64,000 nucleotides of DNA from contig JACPTK010000002.1 in the NCBI GenBank assembly GCA_016192825.1, forward strand, positions 1 to 64,000, given 5' to 3'. A program made the translations under genes and the position numbers. The first letter of the stretch is position 1. Every line of letters starts with the position of its first letter. The notes beneath the pieces are model-generated. The model was given only the letters and a program-made list of their open reading frames with translations, did no database searches and was not told where the DNA came from. This stretch comes from Betaproteobacteria bacterium. GTDB taxonomy: Bacteria; Pseudomonadota; Gammaproteobacteria; Burkholderiales; SG8-41. Positions 1,794-34,622 of this stretch are shown here, in pieces.

Positions 1794-2639
1794 ATGCAAT
1801 CGCAAAAGCGACACGCTCGCACTTTCAGTTTCGAATTTTTTCCCCCGAAAACGGCGGAGGGGAAGGAGAAGCTGCGCGCGACGTGGAAGCAGCTCGGGCA
1901 GCTCAAGCCGAAGTTCTTTTCCTGCACGTTCGGCGCCGGCGGCTCGACGCGCGAAGGCACGCTCGAGACGGTGCTCGAGATCCGCGCCGCCGGCTTCGAG
2001 GCGGCGCCGCACATCTCCTGCGTCGCCTCCTCGCGCGCGGACCTGGGCACCCAGCTCGAAAAGTACCGCAGCCACGGCATCCGGCACATCGTCGCGCTGC
2101 GCGGCGATCTCCCCTCCGGGCTCGCCTCGAGCGGGGAGCTGCGCTACGCCAACGAGCTGGTCGCGTTCATCCGCGAGACGACCGGCAACTGGTTCCACAT
2201 CGAGGTCGCCTGCTACCCGGAATTCCACCCGCAGACGCGCTCCGCGGCCGACGATATCCGCAACTTCAAGCGCAAGATCGAGGCGGGCGCCAATTCCGCG
2301 ATCACCCAGTACTTCTACAACGCGGACGCCTACTTCCGCTTCGTGGACGACTGCGAGGCGGCCGGCATCGCGGTGCCGATCGTCCCCGGCGTCATGCCGA
2401 TCGGCAACTTCACCCAGCTCGCGCGTTTTTCCGACGCCTGCGGCGCCGAGATCCCGCGCTGGCTGCGCTTCCGGCTGGAGAGCTTCCGCGACGACGCCGC
2501 GGCAATCCGCTCATATGGACTGGACGTCGTGACGCGCCTGTGCGACGACTTGCTCGCCGCCGGCGCGCCGGGGCTGCACTTCTACACCCTCAACCAGGCC
2601 GGCCTCACCACCACCATCTGGCAGCGCCTCGGGCTGTAG
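1794..2639 (+). CDS. metF: Methylenetetrahydrofolate reductase
   Basis: 281 aa; FSFEFFPPKTAEGKEKL..., FYNADAYFRFVDDCEAAGI, C-terminal LNQAGLTTTIWQRLGL; downstream of ahcY. Confidence 0.95.
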   Translation: MQSQKRHARTFSFEFFPPKTAEGKEKLRATWKQLGQLKPKFFSCTFGAGGSTREGTLETVLEIRAAGFEAAPHISCVASSRADLGTQLEKYRSHGIRHIVALRGDLPSGLASSGELRYANELVAFIRETTGNWFHIEVACYPEFHPQTRSAADDIRNFKRKIEAGANSAITQYFYNADAYFRFVDDCEAAGIAVPIVPGVMPIGNFTQLARFSDACGAEIPRWLRFRLESFRDDAAAIRSYGLDVVTRLCDDLLAAGAPGLHFYTLNQAGLTTTIWQRLGL

Positions 2640-2726
2640 CAGACCGCGAAATCCCCCTACTCCCCTTTAATAAAAGGGGGTGCGAGGAGCGCGGGGGGAC
2701 TTGACGCCGGGTTGGGGTCACGCCAC

Positions 2727-2795
2727 GCCGTACGCTGGTGCAAGACCTGACCCCGGGGTCTGACCCCGGGGTCAGGTCTTGCAATGACGTACGGC
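2727..2795. repeat. 69-bp near-perfect palindrome built on GACCCCGGGGTC
   Basis: Arms GCCGTACG..TGCAAGACCTGACCCCGGGGTC / GACCCCGGGGTCAGGTCTTGCA..CGTACGGC, symmetric about position 2761. Confidence 0.85.
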
Positions 2796-3806
2796 AGCCC
2801 AAAGCCCGGCCACACGATCCGCTTCTCCCGGTTTTTTGACCCAAGGAGAAATAACGATCCGTATTTATTGACCGTGGTAAAAACATCGGGTGGTAGGCTG
2901 CCCGGATGGCCCGGCGCTTTGTCCGCTATCTCCATCAAGGGCATCTACGACGGGAGGCCCCGCGGCCAGAAGGTCCTCGTCACCGGCAGCGGACGGCTCG
3001 ACTTATACCGCTTCGGCGGCGACTCGCTGCAGGGCCGCTACTACCTGCTGCGGCTGCACCCGCTATCCGTCGCCGAGCTCGGCATCGACGGGCCACGCGA
3101 TTTTCTCCAGTTGCTCCGGCTGGGCGGATTCCCCGCGCCGTACTTCTCGGGCAGCGAGACCGAGGCGCGGCGCTGGTCGCGCGAGTACCGGACACTGCTC
3201 GTGCGCGAGGAAATCACCGCGCTCGAGCGCATCCAGGACCTGGGTCACCTCGAGCTCCTGATGCTGCGGCTGCCGGAGCTGGTCGGCTCGCCGCTCTCGG
3301 TAAACGCGCTGCGGGAGGACCTGCAGGTGAGCCACAAGGCGGTCGAAAGCTGGATCGGCGCGCTCGAGCGGCTCTACGCGGTCTTTCGCATCGCGCCGCT
3401 CGGCGCACCGCGGATTCACGCCGTGAAAAAGGCGCGCAAGCACTACCACCTCGACTGGTCTGTCGTGACGCAGGACGCGGCACGCTTCGAGAATCTGGTC
3501 GCCTGCCACCTGCTCAAATGGGTCCACTTCGGAGAGGATACGCAGGGCCGCGACCTCGAGCTGCGCTACTTCCGGGACATCGAGGGCCGCGAGGTGGACT
3601 TCGTCGTCACCGAGGCGCGCCAGCCGCGTCTGCTGGTCGAATGCAAGTGGTCGGACACGGAGCCCGACCGCAATCTGCGCTACCTCAAGGGGCGCTTTCC
3701 CGATGCTGATGCATGGCAGCTTTCGGCCACCGGCAGCAAGGACTATCGCAGCCCGGACGGCCTGCGCGTCGCGCCTGCGATCGAGCTGCTGCGCACGCTC
3801 GTCTAG
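2784..3806 (+). pseudogene. 5'-truncated AAA ATPase / DUF4143-type protein
   Basis: C-terminal DUF4143-like half (YYLLRLHPLSVAEL..., DLQVSHKAVESWIGALERLYAVFRI..., GREVDFVVTEARQPRLLVECKWS) but no Walker A P-loop; apparent start lies in the 2727..2795 palindrome. Confidence 0.65.
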
Positions 3807-3866
3807 CTTTCCGCATCCTCGACCCGGCCGGGCTCATCAACTCCCTCTGGCAGCGCCTCGGGCTCC
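3806..3866 (+). pseudogene. Degenerate metF 3'-end remnant
   Basis: Translates FRILDPAGLINSLWQRLGL, cf. metF C-terminus FYTLNQAGLTTTIWQRLGL. Confidence 0.7.
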
Positions 3867-3918
3867 AGGGTCCCGTGCCCCCAAAAAAGTGGCCGGCACG
3901 TCCTGACCCCTTTCTCTT

Positions 3919-5088
3919 TCAGGCGAGGAACTCCTGCCACGGCACGGCCTGCGCGCCGGGGGCCAGTGCGCGCGAGGCCTCGCGCCACCGCGGCGGACGA
4001 TAGACCAGCCGCATCTCCACGTCGCGGCGCACGCCCGGATGCTTTGCGAACGCCGCGGCAAGCCTTGTCAGCGGCGCGGCCATGTCTGGCGTGACCGTGC
4101 GCGAGGCCTTGGCTTCGATCAACCGCACCGCGCCGCTTTTCCCCGGGATCACGAAGTCAACCTCCAGTCCTTGCTGGTCCCTGAAATAGTAGAGCTCGCG
4201 CCGCCGCCCGGCGTTGACCTGGGACTTCACGATTTCCGATGCGATGAACCCCTCGAACAACGCTCCGAGAAACGGCGACTTTTCCAGCTCGGCGTCGGTC
4301 TCGATTCCAAGCAGGTGGCAGGCCAGGCCGGAATCGACGATGTAGATCTTCGGCGACTTGATCAGGCGCTTGCCGAGGTTCTCGAACCACGGCGGCACGA
4401 CCAGTATCTGGCCCGTCGCCTCCAGGATGTCCAGCCAGTTACCGATGCCGGGAACGCTCATGCCGAGTGGCGCGGCGAGGTCGGACTTGTTGAGCATCCG
4501 CCCATGCCGCGTCGCAAGGAGCGAAAGGAAGCGGCGAAACGCGACCAGATCCTGCACCGCGCTGATCGCCCGCACGTCCCGTTCCAGATAGGTCTGGAGG
4601 TACGAGCTGAACCACACGCGCGCCGCGCCGGGCCGCGCCAGCACTTCGGGAAAACCGCCGCGCAGCAGGCCGACCCTCGCGGATTCCCGAGCCGACATCG
4701 GCAGGAGCTGGAGCACCGCCGCCCGCCCCGCCATGGATTCAGTCACGTTGCGCATCAACCCGGTCTCCTGCGAGCCGGTCAGCAGCCACTGCCCGGTGCG
4801 CCGCGGCGCGCGGTCGATGCGGCTGCGCACGTAGTTGAACACCTCCGGCACGTTCTGGATCTCGTCCAGGATGGCCGGCAGCCTCACGCCGTCGAGGAAC
4901 CCTTGCGGATCGTTCCGGAAGCGGGCCACGACGTCGGGGTCCTCGAACAGGTGGTAGCTCGCCCCGGGCAGGCAGTGCTTGAGCAGCCAGGTCTTGCCGG
5001 CGCGGCGCGGACCGGTCACGATGACCGCCGGAAAGCCGCGGACGGCCTTCCTGATCTGCGATTCCAATTCCCGGCGAACGTGGCGCAT
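3919..5088 (-). CDS. AAA ATPase with DUF4143-type C-terminus
   Basis: 389 aa; Walker A VTGPRRAGKTWLLKH, sensor region PAILDEIQNVPEVFNYVRSRID, GLEVDFVIPGKSGAVRLIEAKAS. Confidence 0.85.
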   Translation of the reverse strand: MRHVRRELESQIRKAVRGFPAVIVTGPRRAGKTWLLKHCLPGASYHLFEDPDVVARFRNDPQGFLDGVRLPAILDEIQNVPEVFNYVRSRIDRAPRRTGQWLLTGSQETGLMRNVTESMAGRAAVLQLLPMSARESARVGLLRGGFPEVLARPGAARVWFSSYLQTYLERDVRAISAVQDLVAFRRFLSLLATRHGRMLNKSDLAAPLGMSVPGIGNWLDILEATGQILVVPPWFENLGKRLIKSPKIYIVDSGLACHLLGIETDAELEKSPFLGALFEGFIASEIVKSQVNAGRRRELYYFRDQQGLEVDFVIPGKSGAVRLIEAKASRTVTPDMAAPLTRLAAAFAKHPGVRRDVEMRLVYRPPRWREASRALAPGAQAVPWQEFLA

Positions 5089-5145
5089 TGATGAGAATTT
5101 TAATATGGTAGATTAAATTACTCAATCCCCTCCCCTCAACCCGCC

Positions 5146-5286
5146 GCTGTAATCCGCTCCTGCGGGCTCGACGTCGTGACGCGCCTGTGCAACGACCTGC
5201 TCGCCGCCGGCGCGCCGGGGCTCCATTTCTACACCCTCAACCAGGCCGGCCTCACCACCGCCCTCTGGCAAAGACTTGGCCTTTAG
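5146..5286 (+). pseudogene. Second copy of metF 3' end
   Basis: GLDVVTRLCNDLLAAGAPGLHFYTLNQAGLTTALWQRLGL-stop, almost identical to the metF C-terminus. Confidence 0.9.
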
Positions 5287-5565
5287 GGCGCGCTGGAGGG
5301 CGGAGCAGGTGCCCGGCTCTGCTGGGTGCGACCCCGAAAGCGCGCAAGCGTGCCGGCATGATGCGGTCGATCTTTGCGATTGCCTTGCGGAGGCCGCAGT
5401 CTTAACCGGTGACCGGGAACGGTCATCGTCAAGCGCAGCGGGGACGGGATGGCCTCCTCCCCTCATCATGACGTTCCCCCCGCGGCGCTTTATGCGGCAC
5501 AATGAGCCGTTGAAGCGGACGGTGCTGCCGCCGCTTCAACCGCGCCGGTTCGAACGGACATCCGC

Positions 5566-6855
5566 GTGCCGTTCAACCGGCGCATCCTGCAACTGGCGGC
5601 GGAAATGGGGGTACCGGTGCAGTTCGAAACAACAAACGCGCAAGCGAGCCCTCGGGACCCGCAATACAAGGCGCTGATACCTGAGGTCAGAGCGCGCTCG
5701 GCGCAGGATGCGGCCACGATGCTGGCGGAGCACCCGGCGTCCGTCATCGGCGCCGTGCTGCTCGAGCTCAATCCGGCTCTCGCGCAGGACATTCTCGCGG
5801 AGCTGCCCAAGGGGCTCGCGGACGGCGTGCTGCAGGTGGTGTCTCCCGAGGTCTCGCTGCAGTGGCAGCGCAACCAGACCTACCCGCCGGCCACCATCGG
5901 GCGCCTGATGGAGCCCGCCTACGCCGTGTTCCACCCGGCGATGACGGTCGCCCAGACCGTGGAGCGGTTGCGCGCGCTGCTCAAGGTCGCCTTCATCACC
6001 TACGGCTACGTGATCGACGAGGCCAGCCGGCTGAGCGGCATCGTCACCATGCGTGACCTGCTGTTCGCCCAGGACGACGCGCGCCTCGAGTCGCTGATGC
6101 AGCACGAGGTGTTCACCCTAAGGCCGGAGACGCCGCTCAACGAGGCGATGAAGCTCGTGCTCGATCGCCATTACCCCGTCTATCCGGTGTGCAACGCCGA
6201 GGGCATCCTGCTGGGTCTGGTGCGGGGCCAGGCTATGTTCGCGGAGCAGGCGTTCGAGATCACCGCGCAGGTCGGCAGCACGTTCGGCGTCGAGAAAGAA
6301 GAGCGGCTCGCCACGCCGCTCAAGCAGAGCTTCAAATTCCGCCATCCCTGGCTGCAGTTGAATCTCGTCACCGCGTTCGTCGCCGGCGCGGTGGTCGCCA
6401 TTTTCCAGGACACGGTGGACCGGCTGGTGATCCTCGCGGTGTTCCTGCCCATTCTTGCCGGACAATCCGGCAATACCGGCTGCCAGGCGCTCGCCGTGAC
6501 GCTGCGCGGCATGACGCTGGGCGAGCTGAAGGGCGGGAAGGAAAGGGCGCTGGTGATGAAGGAAGCCTGGCTCGGCTTCTACAACGGCTCGCTGACCGGC
6601 CTCGTTGCGGGGACAGGCATGCTGGTCATGGCGATCTACCAGGGCAATCCGAACGCCATAGCGCTCTCGGTCGTGGTCTGGATGGCACTGGTCGGCGCCT
6701 GCGTCGTCAGCGGCATCTGCGGCGCCATGATTCCGATCACGTTGAAGCGCCTCAATCTCGATCCCGCCACCGCCTCCAGCATATTCCTCACCACCGCGAC
6801 CGACGTGGTGAGCATGGGCATGCTGCTCGGGCTCGCCGCCCTGCTCGTGCGTTGA
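5566..6855 (+). CDS. mgtE: Magnesium transporter MgtE
   Basis: CBS-pair region (YVIDEASRLSGIVTMRDLL; YPVYPVCNAEGILLGLV) followed by TM domain with FLPILAGQSGNTGCQALAV. Start may be 5608. Confidence 0.92.
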   Translation: MPFNRRILQLAAEMGVPVQFETTNAQASPRDPQYKALIPEVRARSAQDAATMLAEHPASVIGAVLLELNPALAQDILAELPKGLADGVLQVVSPEVSLQWQRNQTYPPATIGRLMEPAYAVFHPAMTVAQTVERLRALLKVAFITYGYVIDEASRLSGIVTMRDLLFAQDDARLESLMQHEVFTLRPETPLNEAMKLVLDRHYPVYPVCNAEGILLGLVRGQAMFAEQAFEITAQVGSTFGVEKEERLATPLKQSFKFRHPWLQLNLVTAFVAGAVVAIFQDTVDRLVILAVFLPILAGQSGNTGCQALAVTLRGMTLGELKGGKERALVMKEAWLGFYNGSLTGLVAGTGMLVMAIYQGNPNAIALSVVVWMALVGACVVSGICGAMIPITLKRLNLDPATASSIFLTTATDVVSMGMLLGLAALLVR

Positions 6856-31300: not shown

Positions 31301-34044
31301 AGCTCGCCGTGGATCTCGTGATCCTGAACGAACGGGCATCCTCCTATATCCAGGACCTTCAGGTCGCCCTGGAGACGCTGGTTCGGACGAGCCAGTCCCG
31401 ACGGCAGACCGGAGCGGACAGCGCGCGTGGCGCCGTGTTCGTGCTGCGTTCGGACCTGATCTCAGTGGAGACACGCGACCTGCTGCTCGCCATGGCCAGG
31501 GCCGTGCTGATCGGTAGAAACGGAACGCTTTCGGAACAGCTCGAGCGTCTCCAGGGAGAGGGCACCACCGCTGCGCCGCCGCCGAGACGCGTGCCGCCCG
31601 CAGCCGTGCCGCAGACCGAACCGGTGCCGCCGAACCTCGAATTCTTCAATGGGTTCGGCGGATTTGCCGCCGACGGACGGGAGTACGTGACCCTCCTCGG
31701 CGCCGGGCGCTGGCTGCCGGCCCCGTGGATCAATGTCATCGCCAATCCCTCGTTCGGTTTTCAGGTGGCGGTCGAGGGCAGCGGCTACACCTGGTCGCTC
31801 AGCAGTCGCGAGAATCAGTTAACGCCGTGGTCGAACGACCCGGTCACCGATCGGCCGGGCGAGGTCATCTATCTGCGCGACGAGGAGTCCGGCGATCTGT
31901 GGGGACCGACGGCCCTGCCGATCCGTGACGAGGCCGCGCCCTATGTCGCCAGGCATGGTCAGGGCTACAGTCGATTCCAGCACACCGCACACGGTATCGC
32001 GCTCGAGCTCCTCCAATACGTGCCGCTCGATGATCCGATCAAGATCTCGCGGCTGACGATCCGCAACGATTCGGGCCGGCCGCGGCGGCTTTCGGTGACG
32101 GCCTATGTCGAGTGGGTGCTCGGCCCGTCCCGTAGCGCATCCGCACTCTCGGTGGTGACGGAGATCGATCGGGAGACAGGCGCGATGCTTGCGCACAACC
32201 CCTGGAACATGACGTTCGGCTCCCATGTCGCCTTTGCGGATCTGGGCGGACGACAGACCGCGTGGACCGGCGACCGGCGGGAATTCCTGGGGCGCAATGG
32301 CACGTTCGACAACCCGGCCGCGCTTACGGGGGAGGTACTCCTCTCAGACCGGGTCGGTGCCGGCCTCGATCCCTGCGGCGCTTTGCAAACCCCGGTCGAG
32401 CTCGAGCCGGGCGGCACGGTGGAAATCGTCTTTTTCCTCGGCGAGGCAGCGACAGCGGCCGATGCGCGATCCTTGATCGCTCGCTACCGAGCGGCGGATC
32501 TCGATGCGGTCCTGCGCGAGGTCGTCGGGTATTGGGACGATGTGCTCGGCACGGTTCAGGTGAAAACGCCGGACCGGTCCATGGACATCATGCTGAATCG
32601 CTGGCTGCTCTATCAGACGCTCGCCTGCCGCATGTGGGCGCGATCGGCGTTCTATCAGGCGAGCGGCGCTTACGGATTCCGCGACCAGCTCCAGGACGGC
32701 ATGGCGCTCGCCCTGTCGCGACCGGCGCTGACGCGCGAGCATCTCCTGCGCGCCGCTGCCCGGCAATTCGTCGAAGGCGATGTCCAGCATTGGTGGCTGC
32801 CGCCCTCCGGCCAGGGCGTGCGCACCCGCATTTCAGATGACCGGATATGGCTCGCCTGCGCCGCCGCACACTATGTCGAGATGACCGGCGACCTCGCGGT
32901 GCTGGACGAGCCCGTTCCATTTCTCGAAGGCCAGGTACTGCGGCCCGGCGAACACGACGCCTACTTCCAGCCGATGCTCGCGGAGGAGAGTGCGTCACTC
33001 TTCGAGCATTGCGCGCGCGGGCTCGATCGGAGCCTCGCCGTGGGCGAGCACGGCTTGCCGTTGATCGGCACAGGCGACTGGAACGACGGCATGAACCGGG
33101 TCGGCGAGCGGGGCAAAGGGGAGAGCGTCTGGCTCGGCTGGTTCCTGCACGCGACGCTCGCGGCGTTCGCGCCGGTCGCGAAAGCGCGAGGTGAGGAGGC
33201 GCGCGCCGCGAAATGGCTGTCGCACGCCACTGCACTGCGAACCTCGCTCGAACGAGAGGGCTGGGACGGCGACTGGTACCGGCGCGGCTATTTCGACGAC
33301 GGGACGCCATTGGGCTCGTCCACGAGCGATGAATGCCGGATCGACTCGATTGCGCAGTCCTGGGGCGTGATCTCCGGGGCGGCGGATGCGGCTCGTGCCC
33401 AGCGTGCCATGGCCACCGTGGACGAGCAGCTCATTCGCGGCGACGAGAGTCTGGCTTTGTTGTTCACGCCGCCCTTCGATCGCACGCCGCTCGATCCCGG
33501 ATACATCAAGGGCTATCCGCCCGGCATCCGGGAGAACGGCGGCCAGTACAACCATGCCGCCGCGTGGGCGGTGATCGCCTTCGCCGCCCTCGGCCAGGGA
33601 GACAAAGCGGCCGAGGTGTTCTCGCTCCTGAATCCGATCAGACGCACCAGCACGCGAGCCGACGTGCAGCGCTACAAGGTCGAGCCCTACGCCGTCGCCG
33701 CGGATGTCTACTCGATCGCTCCGCACGTCGGACGCGGCGGATGGACCTGGTACACCGGCTCGGCCGGGTGCCTGTACCGCGCCGGCATTGAAGCGACCCT
33801 CGGTTTTCGCGTGCAGGGAGCGCTCCTGAGCCTTGTCCCCTGCATACCCCGGGAGTGGCCCCGATTCGAGATCATCTACAAATACCGTTCCGCGCGCTAC
33901 GAGATCGCGGTCGAGAACCCTCGCGGCGTGAATCGAGGAGTGATTTACGCCGAGCTGGACGGCAAACCGCTGCCGGGCGGCATGACGCGCGTTCCGCTTG
34001 TGGATGATGGTCTGGCCCACAAGGTGCGCGTGATCCTCGGGTAA
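25393..34044 (+). CDS. ndvB: Cyclic beta-1,2-glucan synthase (NdvB/ChvB-like, GT84 plus GH94-like phosphorylase modules)
   Basis: 2883 aa; GT region YVITLDADTRMPRETARRLVGKMAHPLNHPRFD, multiple TM segments, glycoamylase-like HHQGMTVV, C-terminal phosphorylase-like IGTGDWNDGMNRVG, IKGYPPGIRENGGQYNHAAAWAVIA. Confidence 0.93.
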   Translation: MKSRRQTRLPRVSNRKSWSERSNLKSAILRAFGRASRAPPWDNEKSIREELFSIERLEQHAESLAAAQPITARRVTGRSLAVRLRENESVLLEAYRAIGDAVGAGRAITPAAEWLLDNYHLVEEQIREIRDDLPPGYYRQLPKLAAGPFAGYPRVFGVAWAFVAHTDSRFDPEMLRRFVRAYQRVQPLSIGELWAVAITLRIVLVENLRRGARRIVASRAARQEADALADRLLGVNGRPGKPMRSVLQYYEQASLPDAFAVQLVQRLRDQDPKITRALMWLEERLAAQGTTADQIVHDEHQRQGASNVTVRNIITSMRLISDVDWAELFENVSLVDETLRSGSDFAGMDFPTRNLYRSAIEELAWGSKLTELEIARAALLATNDPERRAQQEGDGAGSRERDPGYHLIAGGRRAFEARVGFRAPLRSWPGRFTATIGIGGYIGTIGVAAAIILSFSLFALAGAGIGGGWLVFLALLGLIPAIDAAMALVNRGITREFGATILPGLELRDGIPSNLRTVVAVPILLTTQAALEEQIERLQIHHLASPERELHLALLSDWTDAATETVEGDDALLDAAAAGIARLNRRYGPAPGGDRFLLLHRRRVWNEGQKRWIGWERKRGKLHELNRLLRGAADTTFVGVGGPPFTPAPAPPAGVRYVITLDADTRMPRETARRLVGKMAHPLNHPRFDAGTRRVVEGYGVLQPRVTPSLPIGREGSLFQRIFSSTSGIDPYASAVSDVYQDLFGEGSYTGKGIYDVDAFEAALDGRVHESTLLSHDLFEGTFARAGLASDIEVVEEFPSRYDVAAARQHRWARGDWQLLPWILGRGDAAVEDRSTSAVPLIGRWKMLDNLRRSLSAPASVIALLAGWALPLHAAAVWTGFVVSTIALSTLLPVLAVIVPRRARVTARSHLRALAADVRLAMSLTALLVVFLAHQAWLMTDAVGRTLFRLFVSHRHLLDWVTAGQAQVSPRLDLPGFYERMSGGVVIGIVAAVVVWWVGSDAWPLAAPFVIAWIASPAVALWASLSPLVAGRLSVSDADARALRLVARRTWRFFETFVTATDHMLPPDNFQEDPKPTVAHRTSPTNLGLYLLCTVSARDFGWAGTADTVDRLEATLATMSGLQRFRGHFYNWYDTRDLRPLDPQYVSSVDSGNLAGHLIALANTCREWIGHPAAGPELFAGIEDGLELTRESLQGLPDDRRTQTITPHQLGEALDALAGALHDERLPPVDIAARLAEVTPQAMTMVDIARTLASERGDDASAEMLFWAEATLEAIESHRRDLTQSADAARSQEQRLATLEATARTMAGAMEFGFLLDPERKLLSIGYRVAEGGLDPSCYDLLASEARLASFVAIAKGDVPPRHWFRLGRAVTPIGRGAALISWSGSMFEYLMPSLVMRAPAGSLLEETSRLVVRRQVNYGATLDVPWGISESAYNVRDLELTYQYSNFGIPGLGLKRGLSQNAVVAPYATALAAMVDPGAAARNFARLAALGAGGRYGFYEALDYTPTRLPEGKDVAIVRAFLAHHQGMTVVGIANALLDGKMRARFHAEPVVQATELLLQERTPRDVAVAHPRAEEVETAATVRDLELPAVRRLRSVHDATPEAHLLSNGRYAVMLTAAGSGYSRWGDSAITRWREDVTRDDWGAYVFLRDVQSGDVWSAGYQPSGVEPDSYDVTFTEDRAEFVRRDGPITTTLDVVVSPEDNAEVRRVSVANAGNGDRDIEVTSYAELVLAPPAADAAHPAFSKLFVQTEYLAKVGAILATRRRRSPGEPEIWAAHLAVVEGETVGEPEIETDRARFLGRGREVRTPMAVMDGLPLSNTVGTVLDPVFALRRRVRIAPGRTVRIAFWTVVASSRAEVLDLIDKHEDTTAFDRAATLAWTQAQVQLSYLGIEAEQAGLFQRLAGHVLYADPTLRPSSDAIRRGGGGPAVLWAQGISGDLPIVLARIDDIEDVAVVRQLLRAHEYWRMKQLAVDLVILNERASSYIQDLQVALETLVRTSQSRRQTGADSARGAVFVLRSDLISVETRDLLLAMARAVLIGRNGTLSEQLERLQGEGTTAAPPPRRVPPAAVPQTEPVPPNLEFFNGFGGFAADGREYVTLLGAGRWLPAPWINVIANPSFGFQVAVEGSGYTWSLSSRENQLTPWSNDPVTDRPGEVIYLRDEESGDLWGPTALPIRDEAAPYVARHGQGYSRFQHTAHGIALELLQYVPLDDPIKISRLTIRNDSGRPRRLSVTAYVEWVLGPSRSASALSVVTEIDRETGAMLAHNPWNMTFGSHVAFADLGGRQTAWTGDRREFLGRNGTFDNPAALTGEVLLSDRVGAGLDPCGALQTPVELEPGGTVEIVFFLGEAATAADARSLIARYRAADLDAVLREVVGYWDDVLGTVQVKTPDRSMDIMLNRWLLYQTLACRMWARSAFYQASGAYGFRDQLQDGMALALSRPALTREHLLRAAARQFVEGDVQHWWLPPSGQGVRTRISDDRIWLACAAAHYVEMTGDLAVLDEPVPFLEGQVLRPGEHDAYFQPMLAEESASLFEHCARGLDRSLAVGEHGLPLIGTGDWNDGMNRVGERGKGESVWLGWFLHATLAAFAPVAKARGEEARAAKWLSHATALRTSLEREGWDGDWYRRGYFDDGTPLGSSTSDECRIDSIAQSWGVISGAADAARAQRAMATVDEQLIRGDESLALLFTPPFDRTPLDPGYIKGYPPGIRENGGQYNHAAAWAVIAFAALGQGDKAAEVFSLLNPIRRTSTRADVQRYKVEPYAVAADVYSIAPHVGRGGWTWYTGSAGCLYRAGIEATLGFRVQGALLSLVPCIPREWPRFEIIYKYRSARYEIAVENPRGVNRGVIYAELDGKPLPGGMTRVPLVDDGLAHKVRVILG

Positions 34045-34148
34045 AATCGACGACCGGAAGCCGCTTCCCCCGGAAACTTTCGGGGACAGCGCGCGCGCCG
34101 GATCAGCGGCGAGTTCGCGGACAATTGCGGCAGGACGGGGGGTGTTTC

Positions 34149-34622
34149 TTGACTAAGCGATTGAGCCGGCACTTCACCCTCGACGAGCTCGTCGCCAGCC
34201 AGACCGCGGCGCGCCGGGGAATTGACAATACCCCTTCGCCCGCGGTCGTGCGCAACCTGCGCCGGCTCGCCGCCCTCCTCGAGAAAGTCCGCACGCTGCT
34301 GGGCGGGAAGCCGATCCTGGTCAGCAGCGGCTACCGGTGCCGCGCGTTGAACGCGGCGGTCGCTGGCGCGAAGGCAAGCGCCCACATGGCCGGCCTCGCC
34401 GCCGACTTTACCGCGCCCGGTTACGGCACCGTGCTGCAGGTGGCGAGGAGAATCGCCGCGTCCAGCCTCCGCTATGACCAGCTGATCCACGAGTACGGCG
34501 CGTGGGTGCACATCGGGCTCGCGCCGGCGCGCAGGAAACCGCGGCGCCAGAACCTGTCGATCTTCAAGGGAACCGGCTATCTCGACGGAATCGTCGCACT
34601 TGATCCTCGTGCAAATGCCTGA
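34149..34622 (+). CDS. Peptidase M15-type (D-Ala-D-Ala carboxypeptidase/endolysin-like) protein
   Basis: LSRHFTLDELVASQTAARRGIDN, ILVSSGYRCRALNAAVAGAKASAHMAGLAADF, WVHIGLA. Start uncertain (ORF track 34125). Confidence 0.8.
   Translation: MTKRLSRHFTLDELVASQTAARRGIDNTPSPAVVRNLRRLAALLEKVRTLLGGKPILVSSGYRCRALNAAVAGAKASAHMAGLAADFTAPGYGTVLQVARRIAASSLRYDQLIHEYGAWVHIGLAPARRKPRRQNLSIFKGTGYLDGIVALDPRANA

Follow-up and report, generated by a model that had tools for sequence, protein, structure and literature searches.

Three ends of one gene

How does a housekeeping gene come to be followed by further copies of its own 3' end, with ATPase genes lying among them? An earlier note on this DNA had placed the end of metF three times around two DUF4143-type ATPase genes, one truncated and one intact, and had likened the arrangement to cassettes that integrate at a gene 3' end and leave remnants of the target. 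The features that bear on the question, in the window (the whole stretch of DNA analyzed, 64,000 nt), are listed below.

1794-2639, + strand: metF (methylenetetrahydrofolate reductase), intact, closing with tail A (Pfam MTHFR, 3e-89)
2495-2639, + strand: tail A, the metF 3' end currently used, on the cargo side and probably an incoming allele (87% identical to 5142-5286)
2831-2901, + strand: ATPase1 upstream region with degenerate operator palindromes (TTTTTTGACCCAAGGAGAAA ... TTATTGACCGTGGTAAAAA), recognized from the sequence and the conserved operator of the family
2906-3806, + strand: ATPase1, a DUF4143/AAA_14 pseudogene of the PDC-S01 family, homology resuming at 2935 (Pfam; alignment to the full G002 orthologue)
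3807-3867, + strand: tail B, a degenerate orphan metF 3' end immediately past the ATPase1 stop, its end resembling A-type tails
3919-5088, - strand: ATPase2, an intact DUF4143/AAA_14 ATPase of 389 aa, PDC-S01 family (Pfam; PADLOC PDC-S01, 3e-100)
5099-5117, no strand assigned: palindrome TTTAAT-n7-ATTAAA in the ATPase2 upstream region, of putative function
5142-5286, + strand: tail C, an orphan metF 3' end still intact and adjoining the resident spacer; it is the resident end, displaced by the insertion
5287-5565, + strand: resident metF-mgtE spacer, homologous to the G006 empty-site spacer and to the G008 spacer between orphan tail and mgtE, best from about 5380
5566-6855, + strand: mgtE, the neighbor of metF in relatives with an empty site

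The three copies are confirmed, with limits slightly shifted: tail A begins at 2495, tail C at 5142 and tail B at 3807. A repeat search aligned A (2495-2639) with C (5142-5286) at 87% over 145 nt, the longest identical run being 33 nt, and recovered a 63-nt family whose three members start at 2579, 3808 and 5226. With the metF tail as query against the genome, C was found at E 2e-21 and the degenerate B at E 0.0125. Tail C translates as GLDVVTRLCNDLLAAGAPGLHFYTLNQAGLTTALWQRLGL followed by a stop and differs from metF at 3 residues over 40 aa; tail B translates as FRILDPAGLINSLWQRLGL with no stop and has decayed, 8 of its 9 changed codons being non-synonymous. The same genome (G000) holds a fourth orphan metF tail, far from metF on contig C119, where it is fused to the C-terminal remnant of a second ATPase1-like gene (L033:9623-9867).

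Empty and filled sites in relatives

Empty sites were sought in the metF-mgtE interval of relatives, as the earlier note had proposed, and six genomes (G003, G006, G007, G011, G014 and G020) have the order ahcY-metF-mgtE with no insert. Orphan metF tails were found in four of 74 family genomes, namely G000, G002, G008 and G017; a short-frame match in G076 was rejected as an orphan tail, being a metF cut by the contig end. The filled sites hold different things. In G002, metF is followed by 11 kb of PAS/HD-GYP, porin and GGDEF genes, then by an orphan tail, and then by a full ATPase1 that abuts mgtE, whereas in G017 a frame-shifted orphan tail is preceded by two genes, a LysR gene and one for a receptor. 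The body of metF is lost from G008, and an MTHFR-like gene stands in its place between ahcY and the kept orphan tail (L035:914-1876); this name and those of the genes in the G002 insert were assigned by inspection. Since two of these tails (G017, G008) have no ATPase between themselves and metF and a third (G002) has an unrelated 11-kb insert there, orphan metF tails occur independently of DUF4143 genes. The junctions lie about 24-47 codons ahead of the metF stop and differ between genomes.

Which end is resident

Aligned to the empty-site spacer of G006, the DNA from tail C to mgtE scores 133 (shuffled maximum 32), and aligned to the spacer between orphan tail and mgtE in G008 it scores 175 (shuffled maximum 36), whereas the 3' flank of tail A scores 23 against the empty-site spacer of relatives, which is no match. 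Near their ends, tail C, the metF of G006 and the orphan tail of G008 all have the codons CAA-AGA, where tail A has CAG-CGC. The spacer match and the end codons together put C in the resident position and A on the cargo side; by these alignments tail C is the resident metF end, displaced toward mgtE, and tail A is probably an imported allele. No donor allele for tail A was found, and its import is for that reason something we infer. In the last 123 nt, the 14 sites at which A and C differ are not cleanly sorted by relatives, and tail C has four changes present in none or one of them.

If the copies had instead arisen by duplication, decay of the orphan and constraint on the gene would be expected to put no more than about half of the later differences at third codon positions. 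When the changes that separate two gene-end copies are counted at six loci together, codon positions 1/2/3 receive 39/25/104 of them, a third-position excess with p 0.0013, and the distribution is near that of an orthologue control, metF of G000 against that of G002, at 19/8/71. The test is a modest one, as single pairs are mostly not significant (the G088 pair described below stands at 0.50). Judged from these comparisons, import is favored over duplication, if not proven.

The two ATPases and their upstream elements

The account of one truncated and one intact ATPase between the tails holds, Pfam finding AAA_14 and DUF4143 domains in both. Relative to the full orthologue in G002, ATPase1 has lost approximately codons 10-84, with a frame shift, and with them Walker A and B. 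ATPase2 retains a Walker A (GPRRAGKT) and a PD-(D/E)XK-like motif (EVDFVI...EAK), so that the intact P-loop and nuclease-like motif are present in ATPase2 and in the conserved family and absent from the pseudogene of the window. Both families carry the two domains and match the PDC-S01 profile of PADLOC, the scan for the ATPase1 family having used the full G002 orthologue, and both genes are therefore candidate anti-phage genes of an unvalidated class. PDC-S01, an ATPase fused to a PD-(D/E)XK domain, is reported as the fourth most common defense among prokaryotes, with experimental validation of most PDCs still pending (PMC12988326). The earlier note had called the function of these ATPases poorly understood; a family that PADLOC lists is not wholly uncharacterized, and in the literature searched a single paper names DUF4143. 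A predicted model of the ATPase1 family has a mean pLDDT of 87.5; no relative was found in the PDB by sequence, and a fold search with the model returned mostly generic AAA matches, the best over the full length being 2qen at a moderate TM of 0.45.

Upstream of ATPase1-family genes stands a conserved array of several palindromes, TTTTGACnnnnnGTCAAAATnACTCGCGAGTnATTTTTGACnnnnnGnCAAAATnACTnGTAT, seen in Betaproteobacteria, Omnitrophota, Bdellovibrionales and other phyla. Within the 130 nt upstream of the ATPase gene (L114-L193), and with 1-2 mismatches tolerated, all three elements occur at 35 of 79 loci and, among 77 control stretches, in 0. Because these very loci supplied the pattern, and loci of shared descent are not independent, the contrast speaks for conservation and not for a probability. 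The array suggests a putative operator through which the family would regulate itself, operator and gene forming a compact unit. Such an operator is new, not being described in the literature searched, and it makes the regulation of PDC-S01 genes directly testable. A long hairpin at 2727-2795 of the window, with 34-nt arms that are 88% complementary and with CAAGACCTGACCCCGGGGTC, is found also near a RAYT-like gene on contig C119 and is probably a REP-type element.

The same footprint at other loci

The earlier note had also proposed a search for other DUF4143 genes flanked by duplicated 3' ends of their neighbors, and duplicated gene ends around such genes were found at rsmB-like, DUF3108-like and hsdR genes (the first two named by inspection). 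In G008 an ATPase1 orthologue lies behind an rsmB-like gene, a diverged copy of whose end directly follows the ATPase stop, and at two Omnitrophota loci the ATPase lies behind a DUF3108-like gene with the gene-end copy about 35-50 nt past the stop. On contig C71 of G000 it is a 5' gene end that is duplicated, an orphan head of hsdR and the intact hsdR enclosing a DUF4143 gene.

Other cargo leaves the same footprint. G088, from another genus, has an SLFN_AlbA_2/HATPase_c_4 gene with an orphan head of hsdR on one side and intact hsdR on the other (L264:5499-7324), an event independent of that on contig C71; in G006 a porin gene and an orphan copy of the porin tail enclose a PIN toxin-antitoxin pair (L099:9932-11039); and on contig C15 of G000 (32140-34491) an AbiEii-like gene lies between two gene-head copies, 94-95% identical, whose 1/0/9 changes by codon position are nearly all synonymous. 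On contig C119 the 3' end of a tRNA-Leu is duplicated around a RAYT-like gene, the remnant of ATPase and metF tail mentioned above, and a third DUF4143 gene (L033:8353-11279).

Flanking gene ends are detectable at few of the 79 ATPase1-family loci (L115, L136, L141 and possibly L126), and at most of them the ends have either decayed or the gene arrived by another route. At L126 (4560-6540) a direct repeat of 227 nt stands on either side of the gene, and its beginning resembles the 3' end of a tRNA. Four DUF4143 genes occupy 8 kb of G008 contig C69 (L088) with GAATCGG-type heptamer tracts between them, and the repeats of this cluster were rejected as gene ends for being such tracts. Repeats at L071 and L099 (CACAGAGG type), L107 and L091 (likely tRNA-associated) were likewise set aside as dispersed or of another kind.

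A possible role for the ATPases themselves

Are the ATPases more than passengers? In 1.26 Mb of G000, low-copy direct repeats flank 4 of 9 DUF4143 genes and 17 of 774 other genes (p 4e-5). Because repeats were the reason for choosing the locus of the window, a fair count has to omit it, which leaves 2 of 7 against 17 of 774 (p 0.011) at the most favorable of the four flank widths tried, 1,600 nt, and p 0.027, 0.053 and 0.11 at 300, 600 and 1,000 nt. This enrichment is weak, and it could be a sign of a role of their own. A gene-tail test by called genes, with crude gene calling and short tails, found no excess for ATPases over other genes, a result that speaks neither for nor against DUF4143 specificity, and translated comparisons of whole flanks were too noisy in GC-rich DNA. 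A target motif, CACTT(C/G)(T/C)AC, taken from the metF and rsmB-like joints was dropped, as other joints do not have it.

There is foreign DNA at the metF end and a target remnant beside mgtE, as the empty sites and the spacer match indicate, and to that extent the reading of cassettes at gene 3' ends stands. A system specific to DUF4143 finds no such support, given the other cargo, the hsdR 5' end, the AbiE, PIN and SLFN_AlbA_2 cases and the varying junctions; an integrator of gene-specific cassettes is not supported by these sequences. That DUF4143/PDC-S01 ATPases promote their own spread, with the nuclease-like domain favoring recombination at gene ends, seems to us very doubtful. If true, a single gene with an autoregulatory operator would be a minimal mobile unit that carries a substitute host-gene end, like a homing gene that has no intron.

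Proposed mechanism and alternatives

The extra metF tails are, we think, probably the footprints of one-sided insertion anchored by homology, akin to homology-facilitated illegitimate recombination (HFIR). On this view a related strain would have supplied DNA with its own metF end and then cargo, here the DUF4143/PDC-S01 ATPase genes, and this DNA would have paired by homology with resident metF; its other end would have joined, without homology, inside the resident metF 3' end. The gene would stay whole because the incoming DNA brings a complete end (tail A), and the resident end (tail C) would be left orphaned ahead of mgtE. An earlier event of this kind may account for tail B and the dead ATPase1, which could have come in as part of the imported block. 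What the sequences show directly is the geometry, the empty sites, the resident position of C, the allele-like divergence, the other cargo and the variable junctions; the route of recombination, the donor and the order of events are matters that we infer.

As HFIR would have it, there is a homologous anchor on one side and displaced resident sequence on the other, the position of the junction varies between events, no dedicated recombinase appeared on inspection of the ORFs, and the cargo ranges from the PAS/HD-GYP block of G002 to the LysR and receptor genes of G017 and the MTHFR-like gene of G008. A process of this type explains the whole metF, the displaced end, the variable junctions, the varied cargo, the use of both 5' and 3' gene ends and the missing integrase. 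Against it, in the rsmB-like case of G008 and at the joint of ATPase1 and tail B in the window the tail starts exactly at the ATPase stop, which is tidier than random joining would predict. A search of the genus for Ku genes found none, which makes Ku-dependent end-joining unlikely. HFIR would be expected to depend on RecA and to accompany DNA uptake; ComEC is present in 8 of 10 members of the genus, but it is not specific, since genomes with no known natural competence have it as well. Homology-assisted illegitimate recombination has been proposed for many small variable segments (PMC2884548).

The main rival is that an ATPase unit inserted as some restriction-modification (R-M) units do, duplicating 60-500 nt from the end of the resident gene, and that the identical copies diverged later. 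For R-M genes, duplicated targets of around 100 bp have been described (Nobusato 2000, as cited in PMC3874152), tail C would likewise adjoin the resident spacer, and hsdR heads within a genome resemble each other more (85%, 89%) than they do those of the other genus (69-73%). The third-position excess in the pooled differences, the changes in the contig C15 pair (95% identical), the variable cargo and a tail A without the end codons common to C, G006 and G008 all argue the other way, and we regard this origin as unlikely.

An integrase-mediated element that attaches at the 3' ends of genes or tRNAs and restores them (icd-type) would account for the duplicated 3' ends of metF and tRNA-Leu around cargo and perhaps for the 33-nt identical run between A and C. 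Inspection found no integrase among the window ORFs (2640-5566) or in the G002 and G017 inserts, the junction position varies, and a 5' gene end is used too (hsdR), which together make such an element quite improbable. Orphan tails would also result if metF had long ago been duplicated in tandem and then suffered a deletion. No result calls for this, and the spacers, the empty sites and the recurrence of the pattern at unrelated genes speak against such a past; nor were metF 5' remnants found between the tails, as might be left by the second full metF that the earlier note had named as a possible source, and we give this history very little credence. An artefact of assembly or binning is the least credible reading of all, for although the draft has 123 contigs at 96% completeness and 5% contamination, orphan metF tails stand at the same locus in the independent genomes G002, G008 and G017.

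Comparison with known systems

Mitochondrial mobile ORFs are known that carry C-terminal gene duplications, for example at Allomyces atp6. The likeness is a gene end duplicated around a nuclease-like ORF; here, in contrast, there is no sign that the ATPase drives the event, since other cargo leaves the same footprint. R-M insertions with target duplication, as they are cited from Nobusato (2000) in PMC3874152, also place a small selfish or defense gene between direct gene repeats of about 100 nt, whereas the copies described here have diverged in the manner of alleles and the cargo is varied.

The ATPases belong to the same protein family as the PDC-S01/DUF4143 ATPases of PADLOC (Payne 2024 preprint, as cited in PMC12988326), and one copy is embedded beside hsdR, the type of position by which such candidates were proposed. 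They differ from that account in that single genes also adjoin housekeeping genes with displaced ends and that the ATPase1 family has a conserved operator of its own.

Type VI secretion (T6SS) arrays of Vibrio cholerae, with their displaced effector 3' ends, and the orphan 3' ends of Rhs genes show the same footprint and have received the same interpretation (PMC5361080). There too an upstream part remains constant, new cargo comes to lie next to it, the old 3' end and its cargo are pushed downstream, and repeated events build arrays (PMC5361080). Unlike in those systems, a housekeeping gene with an almost unaltered product serves as the anchor at metF, and unlike in the T6SS arrays, the cargo is a single candidate defense gene and not an effector-immunity pair. 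The displacement process is known in outline, and DUF4143 ATPase cargo at a metF end is not described in the literature searched. What such loci offer is a readable record of how very common but unvalidated candidate defense genes enter genomes singly, with neither islands nor integrases nor transposons, and orphan gene ends can be used to find these insertions.
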